A program made the translations under genes and the position numbers. The notes under the pieces are model-generated. The model searched no databases, was not told the origin of the DNA, and saw only the letters and a program-made list of their open reading frames with translations. Positions 9,239 through 28,945 of a DNA stretch of 32,587 nt are shown here, in pieces. Every line of letters starts with the position of its first letter. The first letter of the stretch is position 1. This DNA comes from Eubacterium sp. GTDB taxonomy: Bacteria > Bacillota > Clostridia > Oscillospirales > Acutalibacteraceae. The stretch spans positions 1 to 32,587 of the forward strand of contig JAFUEH010000017.1 in the NCBI GenBank assembly GCA_017463985.1, written 5' to 3'.

Positions 9239-9257
9239 ACCTGCCTAAGATAACGAA

Positions 9258-9292
9258 AACCCCACTGCTTGATAGCAGTGGGGCTTTGTTGT
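9258..9292. terminator. Bidirectional terminator between thrS and the small acidic gene
   Basis: CCCCACTGCT (9260-9269) pairs with AGCAGTGGGG (9274-9283) over a 4-nt loop. T-rich tails follow on both strands (CTTTGTTGTG on plus, TTTTCGTT on minus), so it serves the converging thrS and the minus-strand small gene. Confidence 0.88.
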
Positions 9293-9300
9293 GTTAGCCG

Positions 9301-9447
9301 TTATGCAAACAGGTCGTCAGTCGGATCACCGACGGCGTCAAGATCGTAATCGTCACCGTCACCGACGTGATCACTGTCCGTGAATACGTCCGGCGTCAGA
9401 CGGTACTTTCTGACCTCGAGCTCCGGCTCAAAATAATTCTTTCTCAT
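9301..9447 (-). CDS. Small acidic protein (left copy)
   Basis: A 48-aa protein starting 14 bp after the stop of the giant gene, with GGAGG of its own just after that stop. The N-terminal half is basic and aromatic (MRKNYFEPELEVRKYR) and the C-terminal half very acidic (13 Asp in the last 29 residues), ending DLFA. The N-terminal pattern K-x-Y-x-x-P-x-x-E-V-x-x-Y/F is one I associate with short uncharacterised proteins found beside surface proteins in Clostridia; that link is memory-based. There is no signal peptide and no Cys, so a classical exported toxin is unlikely. It differs from the right copy at 19814 by only 4 bases and one residue (Phe6 versus Tyr6). The function is unknown; a chaperone, secretion partner or modified peptide precursor are all possible. 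Confidence 0.8.
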   Translation of the reverse strand: MRKNYFEPELEVRKYRLTPDVFTDSDHVGDGDDYDLDAVGDPTDDLFA

Positions 9448-10181
9448 GGCAAGCACCTCCGTTAGCCGATAACGGCATCTTGTGTTGCGGAGAATACGGT
9501 GTGCATCGCACCCTGATCGTCAGTGTAGTTGATATAGGCAACATACTTTGCTCTACCGGTTGCACTGTTGAGATGCAGGTTAATGGTGTAGCTGTTGTCC
9601 GTACCGCTGTCAAGCTTCGTGGACTTCAGTCGTCTGATCTTGTCGGCACCGACATCGTTGGCAGCACCGGCGGTATCAAAGCTGAGCTCTCTGTCAACGA
9701 GTACCTCACCGGTCTTGTTGTACTGTACCAGTACGCCAGCCTCTACCAGCTCGTAGCCCTCCGGCATCGCAAAGCTGCTGTTGGTAATGATCGTGTCCTC
9801 ATTGACAGTCGCGTGAGTGCTGACATAGACAGATGAAGGAGCACCGGCATTGTCGTATACTGGCTCTGCACATACTAAGATGTCTTCATCAGACAGAGCG
9901 GATACAAGGTATACAGCTTCTTCTGTAATCTTGAAGGTGTAGGTATTGCCGTAAGCTACAACTGTCAGGAACGGATCAACCGTATCGATTATATCATCAC
10001 TATCATCCTTAAACGGATAGTTTGGATAATCAATGTAAATGCCTTCATAGAAATAATCAGCTATATCTTCACTAGCTACCTTTGCAACGGCTACGGCGCT
10101 ATCATCGAGGCTTTCTGTCACGATTTCACCATAGTAATACTCTGTCTCGCTGCCTTCGTCGAAGTTATATACCGTACACAT
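9301..10181. repeat. Left arm of long inverted repeat
   Basis: This covers the left small gene and the last 239 codons of the left giant gene. It is repeated in opposite orientation at 19086-19960. The small genes match in 143 of 147 bases; the 3' end of the giant genes is nearly as close, falling off further upstream. Similarity stops about 4 bases past the small gene's stop codon. Confidence 0.9.
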
Positions 10182-13100
10182 CGGAACGCCTTCGCCGACC
10201 TGTTCATAGTTCAGGTAAATTTTGGTGTCCTTAGTAATGGAGGCCGGTGCGGCGTCCATACCCTGATAACTGTAGAATGCGTAGGCAGGTGCTTTGACGT
10301 TGCTTGTGTCTACTGTTCCGCCTTCATTCACATACTGTACAGCAACGGTATAGCCCAGCTGTTCTTTTTCATCGGCGTCCTTGCAGGTCGTGACGTAAGA
10401 AACCTTGTAAGGCTTGTCGTCTGTGGCAGCCGCCGCGGTGACGGTCGTGTTGCCTACCAGCTTAAAGGTGAATTCCTCAACGGTGCCGATGTATTTCTGA
10501 TGATGGCTCTTTTCCTTGTTAGCGGTGTAGGATTCATAATCGTAGGTGAAGCAGGCCCCTTCGTCTACGCTGACGGTCAGCATTGTACCGTACGGAATCT
10601 TTGCGCCGTTGGCGTAGGTCTTGCCGGATTCATCCGTGATCACCGCGTCGGCGTTGTCAACGGTTACGGTGTATTCCTTTAGTGGAATGGACTGTACTCT
10701 TGCCTCCGCCTGGTCAACCAGCTGCTGTGCGTCCGGCGCCAGTGCCTTATAGGTGTCGGCGTTAGTAACGGTTACGTCAATGAAAGCGGCTGTTTCCAGC
10801 TCATTAATGGCATCTACGACCTCGTCGACGTCGTAAGCGTCCGGATCACTTGCCTTCCGTTTAGCATCCTGTACATAGTACTGGAACGAATCCTCGTAGA
10901 AGCCGGTCACTTTCTTTAACTTCAGCTGTGCCGTCAGGGTTTCCAGCGTGGTGATCTCGCCCTGCAGGTCGCTTGCATAGTCGGCGGAGATCACTGCGTC
11001 GCGGTCCATCGCGTAATACTGCATACCGGCCAGCGCGGTGTTCACGGCTTGCAGATCTGTAGCATAGTAGCTGTAGTCCGCCAGCTGCTCCGTCAGCGCC
11101 TCAAAGGCTTCGATCGCCGGCAGTACCGGAATGTTCGCCAGCAGCGCTTCGTAAGTGGCCTTCAGCGTGTCGGCAAGGTTGTCGATCGCCGGCTGCTCGG
11201 TGGTGTTATAGTTTCTGATGTTGATATCAGAATACTTGTTGCCAAGGCCGTCCGTGCCGGTAGCGGCTTCATAAGCGGCTGCGAAGTCCGCCCAGGTAGC
11301 AGTGGACCAGCCGGAAGCACCGGCTTCATACGTCGCCTGTACGTTGAGCGGCTTGTCGGCTGCCTGGTAAGCCAGGGTGTCCTTGATCGGCTGATTGGTG
11401 GCCGCTCTGACGAGCGCCTTGTAAGCATTCCACAGGTTGGTGTATCTTGTCTGGAGCTCTTCTGTGATCTCGTTAGCGGTCATTTCGGTGTAGTTCAGAT
11501 TCATCTGTGCGTCCGAATAAGCCGCCAAGAAATTGTTCCAGGAAGCGATGGTGTAAAGCGTTTCGTGGTTAGCGTCGATTTCTTCTTGCTTCACAAGGGC
11601 AATCAGGTCAACCAGGTTCGCCGCATCAACGATCGTGACGTTAGAGGTCATCGGTTCGTCAGATCTCACGAAGCCGTAGCCGGCATACGCCAGTACTGGC
11701 TGGATGTTCCAGGTGTACGTAATACCGAAGTAGTTATTCGTAAAGGAAACGGTGGACTGCGTCGGCAGCGTGGTCGCTGTCAGCATCGGCTCTACCGAAC
11801 CCGGCAGGTCAAGGTACATATCCGCTGCGAATTCCAGCGAAGCGTCGCCACTGCTGGCTACGCAGATATTCGAGGTACCGTAGGCCGGACAGGTGGAGGT
11901 ACCGGTCGTGTAGCCCAATACCTGATCGTATTCCGCGGAATCACGGTCGGTGATCTCTGTGCCGAGATCTGTTAACGCATACCAGTCATAGCTGCGGTTA
12001 CGGGTACCGATGACATGGAAGTTTCGGATACCGAAGCCCTGATCCTGATCGTACAGCAGACCGGCGTAGGTCTCCTTTTGTGCATCGGAGAGAGCGCTCG
12101 GTGTAGAGGTAGCGGCGGTGGAGTTGATCTCGGTATTCGTGGTAGTCGTTGCCTTGATGGTGACGCTGTCGATACCGTTGTTGTTCTTTGAGGTGTTACC
12201 GTCAAGGTTAATAGTGTGAGTCAGATAAGCCGTACCGTAGGTCGTCTGGCTGACCTCGTGGTTCATCTTAATGATGATACCGGAGCTCGGATAGGAGAAA
12301 TAGAAGTAATGATGGAAGCCACCGCTCGAGGAGCTCGGATAGCCCGCGTCCATGTTGATAGCGGTCAGTGCGCCGGTGTTGGCGACCGTACCGTCCGGAA
12401 TTTTCAGGAAAGAATACTGCAGGTTACTGTAAGCGTCGAACACTGCCTGTACTGCCGCTACATACTGCGCATACTGCGCGTCGTAATCCGTGAAATCGGT
12501 GATAGCCGCTACGGACAGATAGGTCTGCGCTTCATTCTTGGCAGTTGTCAGCACCGCGTAGTTCGCATAGTCTGATGGATCGTCAACATCCAGCGCCAGC
12601 GCTTGGTTCATGGACATTCTCATGTTGCTGGTCTGTACCACCGCGTCCGGACTGATGCGCAGTCCCTTGATCGCCGCGTCGATCGCTGCACGGTGCTGTT
12701 CTACGGTTGCTTGCGCTTCGGCAGAATCGTCTAATGCGTCGGCAGCAACGCCGTAGTTGCCGTTCCAGATTGCCTGAGACGCCGCGTTGATCGCCGCCTC
12801 TACGGCTGCATAGCTCGCCGGCGTAAAGATATTGTTGTAGCTTCTGAACTGCGTTACCAGATTCTCTACTGGCGTGGTGTCCACCTTCGCCGCCACGGTC
12901 TCCAGCGGCCATGCCGCCTCGATCGCGTCAGCGTAGGTCTGTGCCGTGCTGTTGTTATAGCCGTTCGTCGGCAGCCAGGTCGCATGCGTTACACCGGCTT
13001 CGTAGGCTGTCTTGAAGGCGGACCAGGATTCGCTCGTGTAGCCGGCGCCGTCGTTCACGATCGCCGCGTCGTAGGTCGCCTTAGTGTTGGTGAGCCAGGT

Positions 13101-14390
13101 CCTGAGCGCAGTGTAGCCGCTGCCGTTCTGATTGCCGACTGTAGCGTTCGGGTCAGTCGCGGACGCTTTGATGTTGGCAGCCCATTTTTGTGCGTTGGAG
13201 GCATAGTTGTCGGTTGTCCAGGCGGAGCCGTAGGTCGCGGTATCGTACGGATCAAGACTGCTTTTTGTATATTGATCCATCGCGCCAAACAGTGCGGACA
13301 GTCCGCCGGTCTCGCTGTAATCCGCAACGCCGTTGGTGGTAGCCACAGCACTTCTTACCATCGGAACGTATTTATCAATACCCTCCTTGATCGGCTTGTA
13401 GTTCACCACGTAGATCGGTATGCTGATGGAAGCCGTGCTGGTTTGCCACTTGGCAGAGCTAAAAAGGGCACTGTTTTGATAAATATAGGTTTGGAAGCTA
13501 AAGGAATTGAAGAGCTCATAGTAATTCGTCGTGTTACCGGTGCCGGTATAGCGCAGCTTGTTGATCCAGAAACGGGAGGTGCCGGTATTACCGTTAGCAC
13601 CGGTTGTGTTGCTGCTGCCGTCAGAGGTTTGGTAACCGAAGGTGATGTTGTTATAGCCGCTGTCCAGGTGTCCGCCGTACCACAGCTGATAAACATTGTT
13701 AACACCGGAATAACGGCCGAGCCATTCCTGCTGGAATGCCCAGCTTGACGTTGTGCTGGCCGTGTAGCCGATCGTACCGTCACGGTTGCTGGTCATCTTG
13801 GTTTCCATACCCATCGGGACGTAAACATTGCTCTTTCCGTCCGCTTCCGTCGTGCCGTCATAAACCAGTACGGTGCCGGTGGGCAGAATATACTTATAAT
13901 TAGTATAGCTAACATTTGTCTCACCTGTAAAAGTGACATTTACCGGGTCAGAGCTGGTATTAGCCGGATAGCCGAATACAACGTGGGAATAATACGCGTC
14001 ATCTGAACCGCCGGCACCGCCCTTAGCCTCTTCGTTGAAGTAGTAGATCGGCTGACCGTAGTAAGTCGGCGCCGTCCACTCTTCCATGGCAGTGGTAGCG
14101 TTGTACAGGTTGCCGGCCGCCGTGTCGATATCGCCCTGTGTGGCGAACGTGCCGTAGGTGGCGGCGTCGTAATACTCGTTTGCAATAACGTACTTGTCGT
14201 ACGCATCCTGCATGTTGGTGTAGATCGTTCCCGTCTTGACGTTCGCCATCTTATCCTCATAAGCGTCGATCGCACTTTCGAGCGTCGTAAGGTCCGCCGC
14301 CATCGCGGTAACCGCGAACAGGGGAACAGAGGATACGATTAACAGCGCCGCCAAAAGAACGGATATTAATCTTTTGCTGAGCTTTTTCAT
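9462..14390 (-). CDS. Giant secreted FIVAR-like surface protein (left copy)
   Basis: A 1642-aa exported protein. Residues 1-31 are a signal peptide (KKLSKR, hydrophobic core, cleavage at AMA-AD). There follow a helical segment (32-105), a Gly/Ser/Tyr-rich beta domain unique to this copy (about 110-330), and helical repeats of FIVAR type with YTxxSWxxFxxAY motifs (about 340-655). A second beta domain covers about 656-915, more FIVAR-like repeats (SWNNFLAAYSDA near 950, ATWADFAAAYEA near 1031) reach about 1225, two beta domains of MucBP/InlB-B type cover about 1238-1400, and a C-terminal domain runs 1404-1642. There is no LPXTG, dockerin, SLH or C-terminal membrane helix, so anchoring is unexplained. 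Cys residues in TTCK, MCTVYNF and LVCAEP are shared with the paralogue. The start is set by AGGAGG at 14399-14404. It is transcribed divergently from its paralogue at 14982. Confidence 0.9.
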   Translation of the reverse strand: MKKLSKRLISVLLAALLIVSSVPLFAVTAMAADLTTLESAIDAYEDKMANVKTGTIYTNMQDAYDKYVIANEYYDAATYGTFATQGDIDTAAGNLYNATTAMEEWTAPTYYGQPIYYFNEEAKGGAGGSDDAYYSHVVFGYPANTSSDPVNVTFTGETNVSYTNYKYILPTGTVLVYDGTTEADGKSNVYVPMGMETKMTSNRDGTIGYTASTTSSWAFQQEWLGRYSGVNNVYQLWYGGHLDSGYNNITFGYQTSDGSSNTTGANGNTGTSRFWINKLRYTGTGNTTNYYELFNSFSFQTYIYQNSALFSSAKWQTSTASISIPIYVVNYKPIKEGIDKYVPMVRSAVATTNGVADYSETGGLSALFGAMDQYTKSSLDPYDTATYGSAWTTDNYASNAQKWAANIKASATDPNATVGNQNGSGYTALRTWLTNTKATYDAAIVNDGAGYTSESWSAFKTAYEAGVTHATWLPTNGYNNSTAQTYADAIEAAWPLETVAAKVDTTPVENLVTQFRSYNNIFTPASYAAVEAAINAASQAIWNGNYGVAADALDDSAEAQATVEQHRAAIDAAIKGLRISPDAVVQTSNMRMSMNQALALDVDDPSDYANYAVLTTAKNEAQTYLSVAAITDFTDYDAQYAQYVAAVQAVFDAYSNLQYSFLKIPDGTVANTGALTAINMDAGYPSSSSGGFHHYFYFSYPSSGIIIKMNHEVSQTTYGTAYLTHTINLDGNTSKNNNGIDSVTIKATTTTNTEINSTAATSTPSALSDAQKETYAGLLYDQDQGFGIRNFHVIGTRNRSYDWYALTDLGTEITDRDSAEYDQVLGYTTGTSTCPAYGTSNICVASSGDASLEFAADMYLDLPGSVEPMLTATTLPTQSTVSFTNNYFGITYTWNIQPVLAYAGYGFVRSDEPMTSNVTIVDAANLVDLIALVKQEEIDANHETLYTIASWNNFLAAYSDAQMNLNYTEMTANEITEELQTRYTNLWNAYKALVRAATNQPIKDTLAYQAADKPLNVQATYEAGASGWSTATWADFAAAYEAATGTDGLGNKYSDINIRNYNTTEQPAIDNLADTLKATYEALLANIPVLPAIEAFEALTEQLADYSYYATDLQAVNTALAGMQYYAMDRDAVISADYASDLQGEITTLETLTAQLKLKKVTGFYEDSFQYYVQDAKRKASDPDAYDVDEVVDAINELETAAFIDVTVTNADTYKALAPDAQQLVDQAEARVQSIPLKEYTVTVDNADAVITDESGKTYANGAKIPYGTMLTVSVDEGACFTYDYESYTANKEKSHHQKYIGTVEEFTFKLVGNTTVTAAAATDDKPYKVSYVTTCKDADEKEQLGYTVAVQYVNEGGTVDTSNVKAPAYAFYSYQGMDAAPASITKDTKIYLNYEQVGEGVPMCTVYNFDEGSETEYYYGEIVTESLDDSAVAVAKVASEDIADYFYEGIYIDYPNYPFKDDSDDIIDTVDPFLTVVAYGNTYTFKITEEAVYLVSALSDEDILVCAEPVYDNAGAPSSVYVSTHATVNEDTIITNSSFAMPEGYELVEAGVLVQYNKTGEVLVDRELSFDTAGAANDVGADKIRRLKSTKLDSGTDNSYTINLHLNSATGRAKYVAYINYTDDQGAMHTVFSATQDAVIG

Positions 14391-14465
14391 ATCTATTACC
14401 TCCTAAATAATAGATCCGGATCGCACTGCCTCGCGACAGCCATAGTTAATTAACTGCGTTAAATA

Positions 14466-14484
14466 ATTATACGACCCGTATAAT
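14466..14484. promoter_or_regulatory. Perfect palindrome in the left giant gene's control region
   Basis: ATTATACG-ACC-CGTATAAT has perfect 8-bp arms. The left arm read on the minus strand is TATAAT, so the palindrome either overlaps a -10 box or lies just downstream of the promoter proposed at 14505-14533. It is a good candidate operator. Confidence 0.5.
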
Positions 14485-14504
14485 AATATTATATCTACGA
14501 GGCC

Positions 14505-14533
14505 AATATATCATATATTTAACGAAAAAACAA
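14505..14533 (-). promoter_or_regulatory. Possible promoter of the left giant gene
   Basis: On the minus strand TTGTTT (14528-14533) and TATATT (14505-14510) are separated by 17 bp, about 115 bp before the start codon. Both boxes are imperfect and the region is AT-rich, so chance matches are likely. Confidence 0.35.
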
Positions 14534-14589
14534 TAAAAATTTCACAAAAATTTAATAAATTTGCTAAAAAAGACAAAACGAATGCGGAG

Positions 14590-14602
14590 TGTATATTATA
14601 CA
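14590..14602. promoter_or_regulatory. 13-nt palindrome in divergent region
   Basis: TGTATA-T-TATACA is a perfect inverted repeat with a one-base centre, midway between the two giant genes. It is operator-like; no regulator can be named. Confidence 0.35.
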
Positions 14603-14779
14603 AATAGTAATATTTCTGTGCGACTTGACAGATGGCAACTGTCGCAGATTTTGCTATTATTCTTCTGAGAACAGGCGTTAATGAACAAACGGCAATGAAA
14701 TTGACAAATAGAGGCATTTTGTAAGAATGATTTGTGAACAAAATGTTAAAATTTTTTCAATTTTTTTATACAAAAGGTG

Positions 14780-14808
14780 TTGCAATTTGCGTAATAGTGT
14801 GGTATGAT
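14780..14808 (+). promoter_or_regulatory. Promoter of the right giant gene
   Basis: TTGCAA (14780-14785) and TATGAT (14803-14808) with exact 17-bp spacing, followed by a leader of about 165 nt to the start at 14982. Confidence 0.7.
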
Positions 14809-14981
14809 GCACCTGTAATAATTTTAAATAGGGGATTTTGCGCGTAAATTTTTCTATGCGCAAGCGAAAACAGGCCTTTACCTGCGTCCTCTATTTGTAC
14901 TGCACGGCTTTTTGACAGTCCATGGTCAGTGAGCGGCTGGCTGAAAAGCGCGTCAGTGCAGGTTTATTGGGAGGTAAAATT

Positions 14982-17900
14982 ATGAAAAAGATGACGAAGA
15001 AGTTTTTATCCTTGCTCTTATCGGCGCTGTTGATCGTCAGCTCGCTTCCGCTTTTCGCCTTCACGGCACTGGCAGCTGGTATTGACGACCTGAACAATGC
15101 TATTACTGCCTATGAGGATAAGATGGATGGCACCGTGTATACGAATATGAAAGCGGCATACGATGAATATATCGATGCGCTTGCTGCGAAGGATGCCTAT
15201 CTTTACGGTGGCGATACAACAGTGGATCTTGCTGCGGCTGCATCCGCTTTGACTGCTGCAAGCGATGCCATGAATCCTTGGAGCCGCGCTACCTTCAATG
15301 CGGATGCTTACTATTATGGCAATGTAGCGACCGGCGGATACGCGAATGTTGTTTACTGCTCTAATGCGTCGAGCAATACGCTTTCGTCAGGAAAGCAGAA
15401 CAAGGCATATATGGATAACTATTTTTATGCAGTGAACAATATTGTTGTTGCTTATGATGGCGAGACAACACCGCGGATTCCGGCTGCTTATGTTCAGAAG
15501 TGCGAATCATCTCATTCCAATAGAATTTATTATGTAGCAGCAACATCAATTACCAACTTCAAACTGAATGGCAATTGGTACGGCTCTACAGATGCAAAGG
15601 TGAACGGAAGCGTAGTTTATACCGGCCTTCCGTGGAACACGAGCTCATCCAGATCTATCTCTTCCACTGTTCAGACAAGCACATATAACAGCGACTGTAC
15701 CAACACCGGCACACCGAGAATTTACAGCAACTCTTTAGCTTATACCGGTAGCGGTAATACCACTAATTACTATGAGCTGGTTAACTCATTAACCTACCGG
15801 TTCTGTGGGTACTATAGCTATTGGGGCTCTAATACGCAAACCATTGACTATACTTTCTCACCGCATTACTATGTCATTAATTACAAACCGATTATTGAAG
15901 ACATTAATAATGTTAAGGACACGCTGAGCACGGCTTGCACCAGTGGCGTTGAGAATTATACAGAGGGTGGTCTTGCTTCGCTTCTGACCTATCTTGATCT
16001 GCATACTGCGGACAGTGCCAACCCGAACACATACACATACAGCTCTAATATGGCAACATCTGTTACCAACTGCGCAACGGCTATTAAGACTGCGGCTACC
16101 GCTTCTTACACCGCACCGTCTCAGGATGGCAACGGCTACAGCAACCTGAGATCTGCGATTAACAGAACGAAGGCTACTTATGATGCCACGAACGACAGCG
16201 GTTCTTACACGGCGGATTCCTGGGCGGCTTTTGCTACCGCTTATGAGGCTGCTGTGAATACCATGAAGGCACAGCCGACAGACGAATATAATAATGATAG
16301 CGATGCTGCTGCTAAGGCAACTGCATTAAACAATGCGTATGACGCACTCGAAACCGTTGCTACCAAGGTTGATACTACACCGGTGACGTCGCTGGTGGAT
16401 ACTTACAGAAGCTGGAACACGATCTTTACCGCTGAAACAGCGGCGGCTGTGGAAGCAGCGATCGATGCGGCCTCTCAGGCGATTTGGAACGGCAACTACG
16501 GCGTAGCCGGTGACGCGCTGAACGATTCTGATGAAGCACGCGCTACTGTAGAGACGCACAGAGCAGCGATTGCCGCGGCAATCAAGAACCTGCGTATCAG
16601 CCCTGACGCGATTGCGCAGAGTGACAATATGAAACTGTCTATGAATCAGGCGCTGGCGCTGGACGTGGATACGCCTTCTGACTACAGCAACTACTCTAGC
16701 CTGACAAATGCGAAGAATGCTGCACAGCTTTATATGACGCAGGCGGCTTCTACGGATTTCACCGATTATGACACGCAGTATGCAGAATATATAGCTTATG
16801 TACAGGCGATATATGACGCCTTTAACGGCTTGCTTCCGTCTTTCCTGAAGATTCCGGACGGTGACGCAGCACAGAATACAGCGCAGACGAATATGACCCA
16901 GCTCACAACCTCTGACCAAGGTCAGCAGATTGTTCAGTTTGGCTATACGAATTATGCGCTCATCATGAAGATGAACCATGACGGTACAACGGTTCCGTTC
17001 GGTGTAGCAGATATTCTGTTTGCTACCAATATTGAAAGCAAGGTCAATAACATGCTTGACAGTATCAGCATTAATGCAACGGCTGATACGATCGGCGGTA
17101 ACGGCCAAAAGAACCATATTAGAGATCTGAGCACCTGGACATCAACGCCTTATGCGCTGTCTGACACAGAGAAAACTACGTATGCCGGTTGTCTGACCTA
17201 CAACGAATTTTCTGTTTCCGATATCCGTTATTTAGGCGCTAATGCCAATAAACCGGAACAGTTTGCGACGGATAACAGCGGTAATGTTATCAGCTTTGAG
17301 GATGGCGCAACAACAGACTTTACTCCGATTTTGGGTACGACCGACGGCGCCGCTACTAACCCCGGTACCGGCGGTATCTTCGCCCGTTCCACCGGCTCAA
17401 CCGCTTCTGTTCTGTTAGAGGGTAACTTTAATCTTGATATTCCTTCCAGCACGGCGGCAGGTGTGGAATCCAATAACGGTAACGAGGTTGTCAAGACGAC
17501 CTACACCATGAACAATACCTATTTCGGTGCGGTAACGCTTTACAACTGCCAGAACGTTTCCAACTGTGCCGGTTATGACTGGTATACTTCTAAAACTAAT
17601 AATGAAAAAATTAATATCTCCGTTGATGTTGTTGACGCTGCAAACCTTGTTGATTTAATCTATGCTGCTAACGACATTCTTTCAACAGAATCCCTTTATA
17701 CCAAGGCATCTTGGGAAGAATTTACGGCGGCATTAGAGGCAGCACAGACTGACATTGATTATACCACGCTCAGCGCTAACGAAATTCAGTCTCAGCTCCA
17801 GACGAGATATGACAATCTTTGGAGAGAGTGGAAGGACGCAACGGACGGCTTACAGCTGGCAGCTAACAACCAGTCCTTAAAGGATGCGCGTGTTTATAGC

Positions 17901-19799
17901 ACAGACGCAAAGGACAACAAGACAGTGGATGCACTCTATAACGAGGGCAACGCCAACGAATATTGGGATACTACCCTGTGGGCTGCTTTTGAGGCGGCTT
18001 ATGAGGCAGTAACCGGCACGAACGGCCTTGGCAATAAGTATTCTGATATCAATATCAGAAACTACGGCACCAGCGAGCAGCCGACGATCGACGGCCTTGC
18101 CGATGCGTTGAAGGCAGCTTACGATGCGCTTGAGATTGGCGGTATCCTGGTTGACCCGGCAGTAGAGCTGGTTTACGGCGAGGATGGCTTAGCCGCTAAG
18201 CTGGATGACTATAAGTTCTATGCAAGCGATCTTGAAACCATGGCGAATACACTTGCTGATCTGGAGTATTATACCGATACAATCGGCACTTATATCCCGA
18301 AGGAAAATCAGACTGCCTTTGATGCGGAGGTTGCTGCGCTTGAGGCACTGAACGCGATCGAGCCTGCCGGCGACTTTGATAAGGATGCATTCCAGCAGTA
18401 CATCAACACTGCGAAGGCAAGAGCGAACGATCCGGATGCTTATAACATTGATGAGGTCGTCAGCTATATTGCTGAGATGGAGGATGGCGCTTCCAGAAGC
18501 GTGACCGTTCTCGGCACAAGCTACGAAGGCCTTGCGAGCGACGCGATGCAGAGAGTGGATAACGCTTATCAGAAGCTGGAGTCCATGGATATTCAGTCCT
18601 ACGCCGTAACGGTTGACAATGCAGCGGCAACGATCACGGACGCCAGCGGTAAGACCTACGCCAGCGGCGATAAGATCCCGTACGGCACGACGGTAACCGT
18701 TTCGACAGGCGACAAGGCTGCTTACACCTACGATTACGTATCCAACACGTCTAATAAGAACGGCGGTCACATTCAGAAGTACGTCGGCACGCTGGAGGAA
18801 TTCACCTTTACCGTAGCCGGTACGACGAATATTATTGCGGCTGCTCCGAACGGTGATAACACCTATAAAGTTTCTTACATCACCTCCTGCAAGAGCGGCG
18901 ACGAGGAACTGCTTGGCTACACAACTTATGTTGAGTACGTATCCGCCGGCACGACCGTCAACGCGACGAAGGTAAAGGCGCCGAGCTATGCGTTCTACAG
19001 CTTCCAGGGCTACAGCGAGACCTCTGCTACGATCAACGCGGATACGAAGATCTACCTGAACTATACGATCGTTAGCAACGAGCCGATGTGCACCGTTTAC
19101 AACTTCGATGAAGGTAGCGAAACAAGCTATCACTACGGTGAAATCGTGACAGAAAGCCTCGATGAGAGTGCTGTAGCCGTTGCAAAGGTAGCAAGTGAAG
19201 ATCTGGCTAACTACTTATATGAAGGCATTTACAATGATTATCCTAACTATCCTTTCAAGGATGATAGCGAAGATTTGATCGATACGGTTGATCCGTTCCT
19301 GACAGTTGTGGCTTACGGCAATACCTACACCTTCAAGATTACGGAAGAATCTGTATATCTTGTATCCATTCTGTCTACAGATGAAATCTTAGTATGTGCA
19401 GAGCCAGTATACGACAATGTCGGTGCTCCTTCATCTGTCTATGTCAGCACTCACGCGACTGTTAATGAGGACACGATCATTACCAACAGCAGCTTTGCGA
19501 TGCCGGAGGGCTACGAGCTGGTAGAGGCCGGCGTACTGGTACAGTACAACAAGACAGGTGAGGCGCTCGTTGACAGAGAGATCAACTTCGATACCGTTGG
19601 TGACGATCAGGGTAATGATAAGATCAGAAGACTGAAGTCCACGAAGCTTGACAACGGTACGGACAACAGCTACACCATTAACCTGCATCTTAACAGTGCA
19701 ACCGGTAGAGCGAAGTACATTGCTTACATTAATTACACTGACGATCAGGGTGCTATGCACACCGTATTCTCCGCAGCACAAGATGCCGTTATCGGCTAA
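14982..19799 (+). CDS. Giant secreted FIVAR-like surface protein (right copy)
   Basis: A 1605-aa paralogue of the minus-strand protein at 9462-14390 with the same architecture: signal peptide (1-32, ending TALAA), helical start, variable beta domain (about 100-300), FIVAR-like repeats (such as SYTADSWAAFATAYEAA), a second beta domain starting near SFLKIPDGD, more repeats (SWEEFTAALEAA, LWAAFEAAYEAVTG), MucBP-like beta domains, and a C-terminal domain from 1369. The N-terminal domain has little resemblance to the other copy beyond GNTTNYYEL and YVINYKPI, while the C-terminal 237 residues differ at only about 30 positions. No cell-wall sorting signal is seen. ATG 14982 follows GGGAGG at 14969-14974; an upstream in-frame GTG/ATG extension from 14922 would add 20 residues ahead of a normal signal peptide and is rejected. 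Confidence 0.9.
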   Translation: MKKMTKKFLSLLLSALLIVSSLPLFAFTALAAGIDDLNNAITAYEDKMDGTVYTNMKAAYDEYIDALAAKDAYLYGGDTTVDLAAAASALTAASDAMNPWSRATFNADAYYYGNVATGGYANVVYCSNASSNTLSSGKQNKAYMDNYFYAVNNIVVAYDGETTPRIPAAYVQKCESSHSNRIYYVAATSITNFKLNGNWYGSTDAKVNGSVVYTGLPWNTSSSRSISSTVQTSTYNSDCTNTGTPRIYSNSLAYTGSGNTTNYYELVNSLTYRFCGYYSYWGSNTQTIDYTFSPHYYVINYKPIIEDINNVKDTLSTACTSGVENYTEGGLASLLTYLDLHTADSANPNTYTYSSNMATSVTNCATAIKTAATASYTAPSQDGNGYSNLRSAINRTKATYDATNDSGSYTADSWAAFATAYEAAVNTMKAQPTDEYNNDSDAAAKATALNNAYDALETVATKVDTTPVTSLVDTYRSWNTIFTAETAAAVEAAIDAASQAIWNGNYGVAGDALNDSDEARATVETHRAAIAAAIKNLRISPDAIAQSDNMKLSMNQALALDVDTPSDYSNYSSLTNAKNAAQLYMTQAASTDFTDYDTQYAEYIAYVQAIYDAFNGLLPSFLKIPDGDAAQNTAQTNMTQLTTSDQGQQIVQFGYTNYALIMKMNHDGTTVPFGVADILFATNIESKVNNMLDSISINATADTIGGNGQKNHIRDLSTWTSTPYALSDTEKTTYAGCLTYNEFSVSDIRYLGANANKPEQFATDNSGNVISFEDGATTDFTPILGTTDGAATNPGTGGIFARSTGSTASVLLEGNFNLDIPSSTAAGVESNNGNEVVKTTYTMNNTYFGAVTLYNCQNVSNCAGYDWYTSKTNNEKINISVDVVDAANLVDLIYAANDILSTESLYTKASWEEFTAALEAAQTDIDYTTLSANEIQSQLQTRYDNLWREWKDATDGLQLAANNQSLKDARVYSTDAKDNKTVDALYNEGNANEYWDTTLWAAFEAAYEAVTGTNGLGNKYSDINIRNYGTSEQPTIDGLADALKAAYDALEIGGILVDPAVELVYGEDGLAAKLDDYKFYASDLETMANTLADLEYYTDTIGTYIPKENQTAFDAEVAALEALNAIEPAGDFDKDAFQQYINTAKARANDPDAYNIDEVVSYIAEMEDGASRSVTVLGTSYEGLASDAMQRVDNAYQKLESMDIQSYAVTVDNAAATITDASGKTYASGDKIPYGTTVTVSTGDKAAYTYDYVSNTSNKNGGHIQKYVGTLEEFTFTVAGTTNIIAAAPNGDNTYKVSYITSCKSGDEELLGYTTYVEYVSAGTTVNATKVKAPSYAFYSFQGYSETSATINADTKIYLNYTIVSNEPMCTVYNFDEGSETSYHYGEIVTESLDESAVAVAKVASEDLANYLYEGIYNDYPNYPFKDDSEDLIDTVDPFLTVVAYGNTYTFKITEESVYLVSILSTDEILVCAEPVYDNVGAPSSVYVSTHATVNEDTIITNSSFAMPEGYELVEAGVLVQYNKTGEALVDREINFDTVGDDQGNDKIRRLKSTKLDNGTDNSYTINLHLNSATGRAKYIAYINYTDDQGAMHTVFSAAQDAVIG

Positions 19800-19960
19800 T
19801 GGAGGTGCTTGCCATGAGAAAGAATTATTATGAGCCGGAGCTCGAGGTCAGAAAGTACCGTCTGACGCCGGACGTGTTCACGGACAGTGATCACGTCGGT
19901 GACGGTGACGATTACGATCTTGACGCCGTCGGTGATCCAACTGACGATCTGTTTGCATAA
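19086..19960. repeat. Right arm of long inverted repeat
   Basis: This is the counterpart of 9301-10181 in opposite orientation: the last 237 codons of the right giant gene plus the small gene. The high identity limited to this end suggests recent duplication or continuing gene conversion. Confidence 0.9.
19814..19960 (+). CDS. Small acidic protein (right copy)
   Basis: A 48-aa protein, identical to the minus-strand copy at 9301-9447 except Tyr6 for Phe6. GGAGG (19801-19805) lies immediately after the giant gene's stop and 8 bases before this ATG, so the pair is co-transcribed and probably coupled. Of the four base differences between the copies, three are synonymous, which indicates selection on the protein. 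The acidic C-terminal half has several D-x-D spacings but no canonical EF-hand or dockerin calcium loop. Function is unknown. Confidence 0.82.
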   Translation: MRKNYYEPELEVRKYRLTPDVFTDSDHVGDGDDYDLDAVGDPTDDLFA

Positions 19961-19968
19961 CGGCACGA

Positions 19969-20001
19969 CCGCCGCAGAGTTAACTCTGCGGCGGTTTTTT
20001 T
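19969..20001 (+). terminator. Strong terminator after the right small gene
   Basis: A perfect 26-nt palindrome (19969-19994, arms CCGCCGCAGAGTT / AACTCTGCGGCGG) is followed by TTTTTTT. It differs completely from the terminator of the left copy, marking the edge of the duplicated unit. Confidence 0.93.
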
Positions 20002-20126: not shown

Positions 20127-20406
20127 ATAGCCATAGCACTCGCATTCGAACCACGGTTTAGAACGGCAAATTAAACTTATTTCTGCGTTAAAAATGCTCG
20201 CAATCCGAAAGGATTACTGTGCTTTTTGCCTTGAACTAAGCCCAATTTGCTCATTCTAAACTGCGTAGCACCTAAAACCGTAGGAGTTAAGATGAAGTTT
20301 GGTGCTTTGAGGGCGAAGCAAGGCTTGCGCCTTGCAAGAACGAAAACGGCAAAATTCGCTTAAATACTCGGTTTTAGGCGAGTTCGAATACGAGTGCTAT
20401 GGCTAT
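20127..20406. mobile_element. 280-bp MITE-like element with 25-bp terminal inverted repeats
   Basis: The left end (20127-20151, starting ATAGCCATAGCACTCG) and right end (20382-20406) are inverted repeats matching in 24 of 25 positions. Inside are further inverted segments: TTTAGAAcgGCAAATT near 20156 with AATTTGCTCATTCTAAA near 20248, CCTAAAACCG near 20272 with CGGTTTTAGG near 20369, and a GCAAGGCTTGCGCCTTGC hairpin near 20319. It encodes no transposase. No clear target-site duplication is seen (flanks TATGT and CTATAT). It fits a non-autonomous palindromic repeat element, but could instead be a structured regulatory leader because it fills the space between the operon promoter and tyrA. Confidence 0.75.
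20292..20363 (+). CDS. Possible 23-codon ORF inside the element
   Basis: ATG 20292 follows AGGAG (20283-20287) and opens a 23-residue basic peptide, MKFGALRAKQGLRLART then KTAKFA. It has only two Phe and no Tyr or Trp, so it is not a classic aromatic attenuator peptide. It may be chance. Confidence 0.2.
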   Translation: MKFGALRAKQGLRLARTKTAKFA

Positions 20407-20442
20407 CTATATTCAGATAACAACAACCCCACGGAGGCACTC

Positions 20443-21273
20443 ATGAATATTTTAATTTGCGGCTTAGGTTTGATCGGCGGCTCGCTCGCTAAAACCTTAA
20501 AAAAGAACACAAACCATACGGTGCTCGGCTGGAACCGAACCGATACCGTTACCGAAAAGGCGCTGCGTGACGGCGTGATCGACAGGACCGGCGATATTGA
20601 CGCGCTGATGGCGGAGGCGGATATTACCTTTATTAATTTTTATCCGGATGCAATCGTGCCGTTTATTTTGGCACACAAGGACTCCTTTAAGCGCGATTCG
20701 ATCGTTACCGATTCCTGCGGCGTGAAAACAAAAATCTGTCGTGAAATGGCGCAACAGCGCGACCTGCCGTTCTATTTTATCGGCGCGCACCCGATGGCCG
20801 GACGTGAGGTCAGCGGCTATGACAACAGCCTGGATGATCTGTATGACAACGCCAGCTTTATCTGTACGCCGCTGGAAGATACGCCGCGTGTGAAAAGCGA
20901 TGCGCTCGTCGGTCTGGCGCAGCAGATGGGCTTTGCCCGTACGGTGGTGACAACGCCGGAGCACCATGATGAGATGATCGCGTTTACTTCGCAGATCGCT
21001 CACGTGCTTGCCTGTTCTTATGTATTGTCACCGCTGGCACCGATGCACGCAGGCTACTCGGCCGGTTCCTACCGTGATGTCAGCCGCGTCGCGCGTATTA
21101 ACGCCGAAATGTGGACGGAGCTGTTCCTTGACAACAAGGAGCCGCTGGTGCGTGAGATCGATGACTTAGTATCGAATTTAATGCGTTTTAAATATAATAT
21201 TGTCAACGGTGACGGCGCTGCGCTGACAGCGCTGATGAAGGAAGGCAACCGAATCAAAGAGGAAATCGGCTAA
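20443..21273 (+). CDS. tyrA: Prephenate dehydrogenase
   Basis: A 276-aa NAD(P)-dependent enzyme that oxidatively decarboxylates prephenate to 4-hydroxyphenylpyruvate, the committed step to tyrosine. The Rossmann motif GLGLIGGS is at 7-14, GAHPMAG at 114-120 is the family substrate motif, and SQIAHVLACSY (183-193) carries the probable catalytic His187. It is the short form without chorismate mutase or ACT domain, so Tyr feedback through ACT is not expected. ATG 20443 with GGAGG (20433-20437) is the start; an in-frame extension to 20332 runs through the inverted-repeat element and is spurious. Its stop TAA shares a base with aroB's ATG. It is the first gene of the aromatic operon driven from 20090. 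Confidence 0.93.
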   Translation: MNILICGLGLIGGSLAKTLKKNTNHTVLGWNRTDTVTEKALRDGVIDRTGDIDALMAEADITFINFYPDAIVPFILAHKDSFKRDSIVTDSCGVKTKICREMAQQRDLPFYFIGAHPMAGREVSGYDNSLDDLYDNASFICTPLEDTPRVKSDALVGLAQQMGFARTVVTTPEHHDEMIAFTSQIAHVLACSYVLSPLAPMHAGYSAGSYRDVSRVARINAEMWTELFLDNKEPLVREIDDLVSNLMRFKYNIVNGDGAALTALMKEGNRIKEEIG

Positions 21274-22325
21274 TGAAAAAATGCGATGTTCATGCCGGTA
21301 AAGGCTATTCTATTTATATTGAAAATAATATATTACAGCGTGCTGCCGACTATATCCGGCCGGTGACCGCGGCTAAAAAAATCTGTGTCATCAGCGATAC
21401 GAATGTGTTTCCTCTTTACGGCGACGCGTTGGTCGACTGTCTGACGGCGGCAGGCTTTGCCGTTTGTCAGTATGTTTTTACGGCCGGTGAAGCCTCTAAG
21501 ACGACGGATACCGTTATACGGATGGTGGCGTTTTTGGCCGAAAATGAGCTGACTAGGAGCGACCTTGTTGTGGCGCTGGGAGGCGGCGTTACGGGCGATA
21601 TGGCCGGCTTCGCTGCAGCGATTTATTTGCGCGGCATTGATTTTGTACAGATCCCGACCTCGCTTTTGGCGCAGGTGGATTCCTCTGTTGGCGGCAAAAC
21701 GGCTGTCGATCTGCCGCAGGGCAAAAACCTGTGCGGCGCGTTCCATCAGCCGGTGTTGGTACTGATTGATCCGACGGTGCTGGACACGCTCCCGCCGCAC
21801 TTTTTTGCGGACGGAATGGCCGAGGCGATCAAGATGGGCTGTATTAAAAGCGCCTCTTTGTTTGAAAAAATTGAACAGCAGCCGGCGCGGATGGTGATTG
21901 AAGAGATCATTTATGAATGCGTCAGCTTAAAGGCCGGTGTGGTAGAACGAGACGAAAAAGAGCATGGAGAACGGGCGCTGCTGAACTTTGGTCATACCGC
22001 CGGCCATGCGATCGAAAAGCTGCACGGCTTCACCACGATCTCGCACGGTGAAGCAGTCGGCATCGGCATGGTGACGGTCTGTGAAGCGGCCGAGCGCAGC
22101 GGCTTGACACCGGCAGGAACGGCCGACAGGATCAGGGCGGTGCTGCAAAAATATCAACTGCCCACCCAAGATAACCACAGTATGAAGGAAATCGTGACGG
22201 CCATGGCGGCGGATAAAAAGCGTACCGGTGCCGGTATTCGCTTTGTGCTGCTGCACCGGATTGGCAACGGCTTTATTGAGCCGATCGCGTTTGAAGATAT
22301 CAACGCTTTTTTCGGGGTGGCATGA
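21273..22325 (+). CDS. aroB: 3-dehydroquinate synthase
   Basis: A 350-aa NAD+- and metal-dependent enzyme that cyclises DAHP to 3-dehydroquinate, the second shikimate-pathway step. The NAD loop ALGGGVTGDMAGFAAA is at 101-116. Substrate residues are in QIPTSLLAQVDSSVGGKTA (126-144). Metal ligands are Glu184 (MAEAIK), His241 (FGHTAGHAIE) and His258 (SHGEAVGIG). Length is normal for the family. Translation is coupled to tyrA by a one-base overlap, and aroA follows after one intervening base. Confidence 0.96.
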   Translation: MKKCDVHAGKGYSIYIENNILQRAADYIRPVTAAKKICVISDTNVFPLYGDALVDCLTAAGFAVCQYVFTAGEASKTTDTVIRMVAFLAENELTRSDLVVALGGGVTGDMAGFAAAIYLRGIDFVQIPTSLLAQVDSSVGGKTAVDLPQGKNLCGAFHQPVLVLIDPTVLDTLPPHFFADGMAEAIKMGCIKSASLFEKIEQQPARMVIEEIIYECVSLKAGVVERDEKEHGERALLNFGHTAGHAIEKLHGFTTISHGEAVGIGMVTVCEAAERSGLTPAGTADRIRAVLQKYQLPTQDNHSMKEIVTAMAADKKRTGAGIRFVLLHRIGNGFIEPIAFEDINAFFGVA

Positions 22326-22326
22326 T

Positions 22327-23538
22327 ATGAGCAGCGTTATCATTTCCCCATCAGCACTGCATGGAACGGTCCGCGTACCGTCCTCAAAATCGGCCGGACA
22401 CCGTGCGCTGATCTGCGCTTTTTTGTCAGGCTGCAGTACGGTCAACGGTATCGACTCCTCGCAGGACATCCTTGCCACCCAAAACGCGCTTGCCGCACTG
22501 CAAAACGGCGACAGAACGGTCGATTGCCATGAGTCAGGCTCTACACTGCGGTTTATGATTCCGCTGGCGGCAGCGCTGGGCAGAACGGTGACGTTCGTCG
22601 GGAGCGGTAAGCTGCCGCAAAGACCGATCGACGAATATCTTCGCCTGCTGCCGGCGCATGGCGTTACCTGCCGCTATAACGGCTCACTGCCGCTGACCGT
22701 TAGCGGTCAGCTCCAAAGCGGTGTATTTTCCGTCAGAGGCGATGTTTCCTCACAGTATATTACCGGCCTGCTGCTGGCCTTGCCGCTGCTCGACGGCGAC
22801 AGTGAAATTCGCCTGACGACGGCCTTGCTGTCAGCCCCTTATGTGGATATGACGGTGAAGGTGATGCGCGATTTCGGCGTGACGGTGAACCGTACGGAAA
22901 ACGGTTTTTTTGTCAAGGGGAAGCAGACCTATCAACCGTGTGCGTATACGGTAGAGGGCGACTGGTCGCAGGCGGCGTTTTTTATGGCGGCCGGTGCCTT
23001 GCACGGCCCTGTCCACGTGACAGGACTGGACTGGCATTCCACGCAGGGCGACAGGGAAATTGCTACGATTCTAAAGCGCTTCGGCGCCGCGCTGACGGTA
23101 ACGGAGGACGGCGTGACGGTGTCGAAAGCACCGCTGCACGGCATTACGGTGGACGTGTCGAATATTCCGGACACAGCGCCGACGGTAGCAGTGCTTGGCG
23201 CGCTGGCGAGCGGAACGACCGTGATCACCGGCGGAGAACGCCTGCGCATCAAGGAATCTGACCGCATTGCCTGTGTGGTCAATAACTTAAAAAAAGCCGG
23301 TATTCAGGCGCAGGAAACGCCTGACGGCATGATTATCAAGGGCGGCTTGCCAAGCGGCGCCGACCTGGAGGGATATAACGACCATCGGATCGTGATGGCG
23401 ATGAGCGTGTTGGCGTTGGCGGCAACGGGGCGCACGCAGATCAGTGAAGCGGACAGCATCCGTAAATCATATCCCGACTTCTTTAACGACTATAACTCCT
23501 TAGGAGGAAAAGCAGATGTCATCGGTGACAGGAAATAA
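22327..23538 (+). CDS. aroA: EPSP synthase (3-phosphoshikimate 1-carboxyvinyltransferase)
   Basis: A 403-aa enzyme that transfers enolpyruvyl from PEP to shikimate-3-phosphate. The N-terminal signature is PSSKSAGHRALI (18-29, with Lys21, Ser22 and Arg26). The second signature is RIKESDRIACV, and GYNDHRIVMAMSVLAL lies near the C-terminus. It is about 25 residues shorter than the E. coli enzyme. The glyphosate-loop position reads PSSKSAGHRAL, where class I enzymes carry LPGSKSxxNRxL. The start at 22327 is one base after the aroB stop; an upstream in-frame extension lies inside aroB. The 3' end overlaps aroC by 23 bp. Confidence 0.95.
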   Translation: MSSVIISPSALHGTVRVPSSKSAGHRALICAFLSGCSTVNGIDSSQDILATQNALAALQNGDRTVDCHESGSTLRFMIPLAAALGRTVTFVGSGKLPQRPIDEYLRLLPAHGVTCRYNGSLPLTVSGQLQSGVFSVRGDVSSQYITGLLLALPLLDGDSEIRLTTALLSAPYVDMTVKVMRDFGVTVNRTENGFFVKGKQTYQPCAYTVEGDWSQAAFFMAAGALHGPVHVTGLDWHSTQGDREIATILKRFGAALTVTEDGVTVSKAPLHGITVDVSNIPDTAPTVAVLGALASGTTVITGGERLRIKESDRIACVVNNLKKAGIQAQETPDGMIIKGGLPSGADLEGYNDHRIVMAMSVLALAATGRTQISEADSIRKSYPDFFNDYNSLGGKADVIGDRK

Positions 23539-24601
23539 GCTCAGGCTCTCCGTGTTCGGTGAAAGCCACGGCGCAGCAATCGGCTGCGTACTGGACGGCT
23601 TACCGGCAGGGTTAACGCTGGATATGGATAAAATAGATGCCGAAATGGCGCGCAGGGCGCCGGGACGGGATAAAACCACTACGCCGCGTAGAGAAAAGGA
23701 CGCGCCGCAGCTGCTGTCCGGCGTACTAAACGGCGTGACGACTGGCGCACCGCTGGCGATGATGATTGAAAATACCAATGTGCATAGCGCCGATTACGGC
23801 AATGTCATGACAGTACCGCGCCCGAGTCACAGCGATTATCCGGCTTTCGTGAAATATCACGGATGGAATGATGTGCGCGGCGGCGGCCATTTCAGCGGCC
23901 GACTGACAGCGCCGCTGGTTTTTGCCGGCGCTGTTGCCAAACAGCTGCTGGCCGAAAAGGGCGTTACGGTTGGCGCACATATTCTGAGGATCGGCAGTGT
24001 GACGGACGATGCGTTTGACAAAAACGATATCACGCGCGCACAGCTGGAGTGCTTGACGGACGGCCGTTTCCCTGTCATGAATCCTGATAGTGAGGATGCC
24101 ATGCGTGCGGAGATTGAGCGTTACCGTCTTGAAGGCGACAGCGTTGGCGGCGCGGTGGAATGTGCTGCGGTTGGTTTGCCGGCAGGTATTGGCGGCAACA
24201 TGATGGATACGCTGGAGGGACGGCTGTCACAGCTGTTATTTGCTATTCCGGCGGTGAAGGGCGTTTCATTTGGCACGGGCTTTGATTTTGCGTCGAGCTG
24301 CGGCTCAGCGGTAAACGACGCTTATACCGTCAAGGACGGCCGTGTGGCACTGCTGTCGAATCATAACGGCGGCATCCTCGGCGGCATTACCACCGGTGCG
24401 CCGTTAGTGCTGTCAGTAGCGGTGAAGCCGACGCCGTCGATTGCGAAGCCGCAGCAGAGCGTTAACCTGCAGACAATGACGGAGGAAACGCTGCTCATCA
24501 AGGGACGGCACGATCCTTGTATTGTACCGCGCGCCGTGCCGGTTGTCGAGGCGGCGGTCGCGTTCACCCTTGCGGATTTAATGGTTGAAGGCGGCGAATA
24601 A
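23516..24601 (+). CDS. aroC: Chorismate synthase
   Basis: A 361-aa FMN-dependent enzyme that removes phosphate from EPSP to give chorismate, the last common aromatic intermediate. The diagnostic FGESHG is at 14-19 (His18), with RPSHSDYPAF near 102 and RGGGHFSGRLTAPLVFAGAVAK near 122-143. KGRHDPCIVPRAVPVVEAA near the C-terminus is also characteristic. The start has GGAGG at 23503-23507 and sits inside the aroA 3' end, so the two are coupled. pheA follows 31 bp downstream. Confidence 0.96.
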   Translation: MSSVTGNKLRLSVFGESHGAAIGCVLDGLPAGLTLDMDKIDAEMARRAPGRDKTTTPRREKDAPQLLSGVLNGVTTGAPLAMMIENTNVHSADYGNVMTVPRPSHSDYPAFVKYHGWNDVRGGGHFSGRLTAPLVFAGAVAKQLLAEKGVTVGAHILRIGSVTDDAFDKNDITRAQLECLTDGRFPVMNPDSEDAMRAEIERYRLEGDSVGGAVECAAVGLPAGIGGNMMDTLEGRLSQLLFAIPAVKGVSFGTGFDFASSCGSAVNDAYTVKDGRVALLSNHNGGILGGITTGAPLVLSVAVKPTPSIAKPQQSVNLQTMTEETLLIKGRHDPCIVPRAVPVVEAAVAFTLADLMVEGGE

Positions 24602-24632
24602 TCATATAATATAACAGACTAAAGGATAACAG

Positions 24633-28914: not shown

Positions 28915-28945
28915 CTCATCAGCATTGTGTGGAAGGGTGAACGCT

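Follow-up and report, generated by a model that had tools for sequence, protein, structure and literature searches.

Giant secreted proteins of a Eubacterium coprostanoligenes relative paired with likely RiPP precursor genes

The window analysed here is a stretch of 32,587 nucleotides (contig JAFUEH010000017.1 of Eubacterium sp. assembly GCA_017463985.1) from a gut bacterium related to Eubacterium coprostanoligenes. It carries two divergent units, each including a gene for a giant secreted protein and, directly behind it, a gene for a 48-aa protein. We read the small genes as likely precursors of ribosomally synthesized and post-translationally modified peptides (RiPPs) whose leaders would be bound by a RiPP recognition element (RRE). 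The features of the two units are as follows, the division of each precursor into leader and core being a prediction.

9256..9287, minus strand: terminator-like hairpin after the giant A-precursor A unit
9301..9447, minus strand: putative RiPP-type precursor A, 48 aa
9304..9378, minus strand: predicted core of precursor A, DSDHVGDGDDYDLDAVGDPTDDLFA, acidic and free of Cys
9379..9447, minus strand: predicted leader of precursor A, MRKNYFEPELEVRKYRLTPDVFT, with a YxxPxL motif expected to bind an RRE and probable cleavage after T23 (motif and cleavage rule from PMC13381572)
9462..14390, minus strand: giant secreted protein A, 1642 aa, with a signal-peptide-like N-terminus and no Pfam family
9465..10187, minus strand: C-terminal 241-aa domain of giant A, 89% identical to its giant B counterpart
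14391..14981, no strand: divergent intergenic region separating the giants
14982..19799, plus strand: giant secreted protein B, 1605 aa from an ATG with a Shine-Dalgarno sequence
19083..19796, plus strand: C-terminal domain of giant B
19814..19960, plus strand: putative RiPP-type precursor B, 48 aa
19814..19882, plus strand: predicted leader of precursor B, from its sequence and the family alignment
19883..19957, plus strand: predicted core of precursor B, identical to core A
19967..19996, plus strand: terminator-like hairpin after the giant B-precursor B unit

The first-pass annotation had described two divergent secreted giants (1642 and 1605 aa) with a gene for an acidic 48-aa protein 14 nt behind each of them, and one residue separating the two small proteins. 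This description was confirmed. The mechanical open reading frame (ORF) of giant B runs from 14922 to 19799 (1625 aa), and the length of 1605 aa is obtained from an internal ATG at 14982 with a good Shine-Dalgarno sequence. The ATG of each small gene is located 14 nt past the giant stop codon with GGAGG upstream, and the single difference between the two products is at residue 6 (F6/Y6). The giants share 51% identity overall and 89% over the C-terminal 241 aa, a domain for which BLAST gave just two occurrences in the window genome, those of giants A and B. There is no terminator-like hairpin within either 14-nt gap, and the hairpins 3′ of the two small genes are the longest-stemmed terminator-like structures of the region (13-14 pairs). 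Since the total number of such sites is that expected by chance (10 observed against 9.5, standard deviation 3.6), the hairpin argument rests on stem length and position. Neither giant matched a Pfam family at E≤1, which leaves the FIVAR-like label previously attached to them without support, and NCBIfam returned noise only. No relative of solved structure was found for giant A or for the C-terminal domain, two acyl-carrier-protein rows at E 0.1 being chance matches. The giants have neither an LPxTG-type motif near the C-terminus nor a hydrophobic segment in the last 60 residues.

Relatives of the small protein were sought in 80 genomes of the genus (labels beginning with G, C and L designate genomes, contigs and loci). 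A BLAST-type search with the small protein gave matches in 53 of 98 relatives at E≤1, and a profile of 31 members detected the family in 69 of the 80 genomes at E≤0.5, among them G041 with no better than 0.345; single genomes have as many as 14 matches. The window genome itself has ten members (weakest E 0.31), nine of which follow giants (secreted ORFs of about 1380-2230 codons) at distances of 2-65 nt, while the tenth belongs to a second class described below. Context and anatomy were counted on 143 members extracted from the fetched regions of 61 genomes; gene, lipoprotein and signal-peptide calls were made with crude scripts of our own or by eye. Seventy-three members are located 2-90 nt behind a complete ORF of at least 800 aa, 70 of these 73 ORFs having a crude signal-peptide call, and a further 34 are found behind a long ORF truncated where the contig or region ends. 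Taking complete and edge-cut ORFs together, the median distance between giant and small gene is 18 nt. The expectation that small-protein homologues would mostly follow a giant gene, for which such a tabulation had been set beforehand as the refuting test, was thus borne out. Giants lacking the small gene, the other outcome that would have spoken against the unit, are few: among signal-peptide giants of at least 1000 aa, 64 have the small gene and three do not (one of the three counted twice), a tally biased by the choice of regions around small genes.

The second class comprises 19 of the 143 members. These have no giant and precede a lipoprotein-response regulator-histidine kinase run, with mnmA upstream in 18 of the 19 (the exception is the G015 copy). 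Downstream of the precursor, all 15 readable loci (including L072, L084, L086 and L088) include a 385-446-aa ORF, with a lipoprotein-like start in most of them, a 236-237-aa response regulator and a histidine-kinase-like ORF. The remaining 17 members occur in other contexts, several at contig ends or behind broken giants. A scan of named genomes with close alignment gave 12 loci, from metagenome-assembled or uncultured Clostridia, Clostridiales, Oscillospiraceae and Eubacterium and from one cultured strain, Eubacterium coprostanoligenes ATCC 51222 (L323), which carries a giant-small unit. We found nothing on the giant-plus-small layout in listings of the open-licence literature of PubMed Central.

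The first 23 residues of the family, the presumed leader, are conserved (YxEPELEVRKY...VFT) and the remainder, the presumed core, is variable, with a conserved T-x-S at the junction. YxxP is found in 134 of the 143 members and YxxP with a hydrophobic residue in 130, both window precursors carrying YxxPx[LVI]. The cores are acidic (mean net charge -6.3) and none of the 143 includes a Cys. Ser occurs within core positions 1-3 in 139 members, an aromatic residue within the last six positions also in 139, and 100 cores begin with S, T or D, some boundaries being misplaced. Motif counts are partly circular, as the members were found by the family's own profile, and the script that splits core from leader placed the boundary wrongly in a few members (e.g. 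G035, G099 and G049), whose rows were kept. According to PMC13381572, [Y/W]xxPx[LVI] is the motif through which discrete PqqD-like RREs are known to bind; in the linear polyphosphorylated peptides (LPP) encoded by the Paenibacillus alginolyticus lpp genes, cleavage of the leader takes place after Thr and a kinase acts on core Ser 3. We read the small genes as RiPP precursors because they combine a conserved leader with a variable, acidic, Cys-free core: each 48-aa protein is quite probably the precursor of a RiPP related to the LPP/paeninodin type. A subgroup of eight members (KKxFxEAEIEIT...) is devoid of YxxP, and for five of them no giant was found directly upstream (G001 C23, G006 C11, G038 C42, G051 C34 and G101 C30).

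Candidate maturation genes were found in most of the genomes. PqqD/RRE (PF05402) is present in 72 of the 80 at E≤1e-3, 70 of them with strong matches (best E 1.9e-14 or lower). Ten genomes were counted as RRE-negative (G014, G042, G043, G034, G046, G003, G108, G021, G018 and G050): eight have no match at all, G014 and G042 have one marginal match each, and all ten are without the small protein. These ten also carry exactly one copy of NTP_transf_5 (PF14907), against two to five in the others except G102 (one) and G112 (none), and they lack both the S26-type peptidase, present in 65 of the 80 genomes, and the HprK-like kinase (homologues of the RRE-linked APSGxGKTTH kinases), present in 62. Fisher tests against the small protein gave 7e-12 for RRE, 4e-10 for two or more NTP_transf_5, 2e-8 for S26 and 3e-7 for HprK, values which are confounded by phylogeny. 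The RRE and NTP_transf_5 families are not universal, PqqD occurring in three of 14 control genomes and NTP_transf_5 in two. The SipW model TIGR02228 was discarded as a marker; the 11 genomes above its cut-off do not track the small proteins. In the window genome we found two RREs (C1 and C37), four NTP_transf_5, one S26 peptidase with an adjoining ATP-binding cassette (ABC) exporter (C16) and two HprK-like kinases (C18 and C40). One of the RREs matches PDB 9x90, a lasso RRE, at E 0.0035. Of 48 unique RREs, 47 have Asp at the position holding the leader Tyr in place, which is matched to the Tyr-fixing Asp of LppB by its spacing to a conserved Phe and by the alignment to 9x90. The RRE on C1 (L220) is found beside a response regulator and a histidine kinase and, further off, two proteins with weak HipA_C matches below the cut-off.

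The maturation genes are often neighbours. The ABC protein (PF00664+PF00005) adjoins S26 in the window genome, a similar ORF was seen by eye in six relatives, and the S26-ABC pair is also present in G004. In at least 16 genomes the HprK-like and RRE genes are either fused or no more than 300 nt apart: 12 identified by search coordinates, the G033 fusion, and G011, G019 and G025, where NTP_transf_5-like, HprK-like and RRE ORFs are consecutive. One NTP_transf_5 of the window genome directly follows an RRE. Upstream of lepA, an NTP_transf_5-like ORF directly adjoins in all 19 readable RRE-positive genomes (including G008) and in none of nine negatives; an RRE before it was seen as an ORF in 12 of the 19 and placed by PqqD search in the seven others, where the gene caller had taken an antisense frame. 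G015 L226 includes a secreted 1519-aa ORF, then HprK, then RRE, with no precursor found between them. G028 L337 includes a long ORF (at least 945 aa, its 5′ end cut), a 50-aa YxxP ORF, a lipoprotein, HprK and RRE, an arrangement that is suggestive only of a precursor cluster. In G031 L257, NTP_transf_5, HprK, S26, ABC and RRE lie beside an ORF that is precursor-like by eye and scores 4.0 bits. We regard G028 and G031 as weak candidates for precursor-cluster linkage. In G033 C4 (L256), where HprK-like and RRE are fused into a 375-aa protein, an S26 peptidase, an ABC exporter and a second ABC transporter, peptidase-containing by eye, are found nearby.

A number of observations weigh against the small genes being precursors of this kind. 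The window precursors adjoin no maturation gene, RRE, HprK-like, S26 and ABC proteins all being absent from the 16 other window ORFs scanned, and at the linked locus of G028 the family profile gives the small ORF no more than 4.1 bits while the ORF preceding it is 5′-cut and has an end unlike that of the window giants. YxxP is missing in nine of the 143 members, the Tyr-to-Thr spacing is mostly 17-20 against 15 in the LPP consensus, and the full consensus YxxPxVLxHQxIxFETxxS is not found in the family alignment. Among the 69 family-positive genomes, S26 is missing in five and weak in G058, and the HprK-like kinase is missing in eight; G008 has RRE, S26 and HprK while no small protein was found in it. 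One of the marginal PqqD matches (G014 or G042) passes the Pfam cut-off, since 71 of the 80 genomes do. One RRE type has no PDB match, the S26 peptidase scores 28.5 bits against TIGR02228, under the cut-off of 51.85, and no HprK model of Pfam or NCBIfam picks up the kinase, so that its assignment relies on a P-loop motif recognized by eye and on its gene neighbours. In a lepA tree of 29 genomes, including nine of the negatives, the negatives cluster: three changes (2-4 in bootstrap) are enough, and a single origin is possible. Independent losses were therefore weakened as proof, and we treat the pattern of RRE, S26, kinase and NTP transferase as co-occurrence and not as many independent events. 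Both the peptide product and the enzyme activities are predictions. Precursor status nevertheless appears likely from sequence, context and co-occurrence.

The second class provides a comparison between unlinked loci. In the 17 genomes with both classes, the second-class core and a giant-linked core of the same genome have a mean identity of 0.81, whereas the best-matching core of each of 58 other genomes averages 0.33; the own genome ranks first in 14 of the 17 cases. For the leaders of these pairs the mean is 0.49, with the own genome first in two of 17. Excluding the G015 copy, which has the same lipoprotein-regulator-kinase run without mnmA, gave 0.83 against 0.34 for the cores, with the own genome best in 13 of 16. 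The misses are G051, G099 and G049, the last of which probably has its partner outside the fetched regions. Within the window genome, the core on C12 differs from those on C17 by one change and an added Asp. The core co-varies with the giant C-terminal domain no more than with the remainder of the giant (partial correlation 0.06, compared to 0.23 for the leader), and across 11 within-genome giant pairs with matching cores the identity of the C-terminal domain ranges from 0.28 to 0.97. In G100 (C27/C35; L184 and L180), three precursors have identical 18-aa tails while the C-terminal domains of their three giants are only 32-40% identical. A lock and key between core and C-terminal domain was rejected on the partial correlation, and the partner shared by the cores is therefore probably an enzyme, a receptor or a surface component common to both loci.

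A route from gene to mature peptide can be proposed. A discrete PqqD-like RRE encoded elsewhere in the genome would bind the leader, a Ser at the beginning of the core would be phosphorylated by the HprK-like kinase, cleavage after Thr would fall to the S26-type peptidase, and the neighbouring ABC exporter would secrete the core; the NTP_transf_5 enzyme may add a further group. One shared enzyme set would serve about ten scattered precursors per genome, and co-transcription would let each secreted giant and its own peptide reach the cell exterior jointly. Least certain is the last step, in which the peptide may be a surface ligand, cofactor or anchor for the giant; that it acts on or with the giant we infer from the operon. 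We offer only tentatively the full proposal that a single RRE-kinase-peptidase-exporter set makes some ten dispersed, species-specific acidic phosphopeptides, most with their own giant, and that the RiPP might be a ligand, cofactor or anchor of the surface protein, or a self mark, and not a free antibiotic.

Recent gene conversion between small genes could also produce matching cores. Some pairs do keep all codons (G031, 23/23), and in the mnmA/giant pairs 198 of 359 identical core residues share a codon, 0.55 against an expected 0.44 (derived from pooled codon use, which ignores the codon bias of single genomes). However, the other 161 use different codons and the leaders are only about half identical, so we consider conversion an improbable source; with nearly half of the identical residues differing in codon, the cores appear to be held equal mainly at the protein level. 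We also think it unlikely that the whole, unprocessed small protein is a cytoplasmic chaperone or export factor for the giant. Its constant position shortly after giants would fit such a partner, as would a leader that tracks the C-terminal domain more than the core does, but the 19 members at the giant-free locus carry the core of the giant-linked copy, the family is co-absent with RRE, S26, the kinase and extra NTP_transf_5, and the protein has a leader-core architecture. The first-pass annotation had supposed that the small protein works with the giant: the recurrence of the unit across the genus and a product that is probably modified and exported agree with this in part, while the idea of a dedicated helper of the C-terminal domain finds no support, given the giant-free copies and the lack of co-variation. 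Lasso peptide precursors would share the leader motif class, the discrete RRE, the HprK-like kinase and the nucleotidyltransferase (PMC13381572). The B2 peptidase (PF13471) is however absent from the window genome and present in only four of the 80 genomes at E≤1e-3, one of them over the cut-off (the macrolactam synthetase was not searched), and this identity seems very improbable.

The main alternative for the role of the peptide is a species-specific signal, in which the mature core would be a pheromone made both with the giants and from the separate gene before the lipoprotein/two-component system. A signal of this kind could itself be a RiPP; what it rivals is the ligand or anchor role. 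Cores are common within a genome and differ between genomes, as the own-genome matches illustrate, and one RRE of the window genome is itself adjacent to a response regulator and a histidine kinase. We gave this alternative more weight because the two-component neighbours of the second class are constant, the lipoprotein-like, response regulator and histidine-kinase-like ORFs being found in every readable locus. Against it, no receptor has been identified, several different cores occur per genome and most copies are tied to giants rather than to two-component genes; a signalling role is conceivable, although on balance we doubt it.

Elsewhere in the window, the right-hand unit is followed by genes of the aromatic pathway (20332-25778: prephenate dehydrogenase, dehydroquinate synthase, EPSP synthase, chorismate synthase and chorismate mutase/prephenate dehydratase). 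A similar gene order was seen by eye after giant-linked precursors in relatives, e.g. L085, L087, L089 and L090. An 878-aa ORF at 28925-31561 has a CBM_35 match close to its C-terminus.

If the small genes are precursors of the LPP/paeninodin type, then such precursors are individually coupled to giant secreted proteins, and most species with both classes have retained one and the same core at the two unlinked sites. Their function could be sought at the cell surface or in the two-component system next to the second-class gene. Precursors of this type would also be both orphan and numerous, and genome mining based on clusters will miss them.

Sortase-, SLH- or FIVAR-type surface proteins of Firmicutes are likewise large and secreted. 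The giants described here differ from them in having no Pfam domain and no LPxTG-type motif and in being paired with a putative precursor peptide.

Paeninodin-like lasso peptides (PMC13381572 and PMC7533575) resemble the present system in RRE, nucleotidyltransferase and leader motif class and in the candidate HprK-like kinase. They differ in that the leader residue is Tyr here and not Trp, in the B2 peptidase that the window genome lacks, and in the first core residue (S, T or D here, as counted above). The closer likeness is to LPP, as described in PMC13381572: a YxxPx[V/L] leader, a conserved N-terminal and a variable C-terminal part, a Thr before the core and a Ser near its start, a discrete RRE, an NTP transferase and an ABC exporter, which is MsbA-like in LPP, and candidates for the HprK-like kinase and the S26/SpI-type peptidase, with no need of lasso B2. 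In contrast to LPP, the precursors here are scattered, mostly attached to giant genes and number about ten for one enzyme set; they lack the HQ/FET motif, have a longer Tyr-Thr spacing and include acidic cores common to unlinked loci. The main text of PMC13381572, which gives no known role for LPPs and paeninodins, nowhere uses the words Clostridia, Eubacterium, giant or surface protein. The system would work like LPP, yet it is not classed as a member, because the full LPP motif and a clustered precursor were both looked for and not found for the window genes. With each giant encoded beside a small protein that resembles the raw form of a modified, exported peptide, the window points to a pairing, so far undescribed, between surface proteins and peptide natural products.

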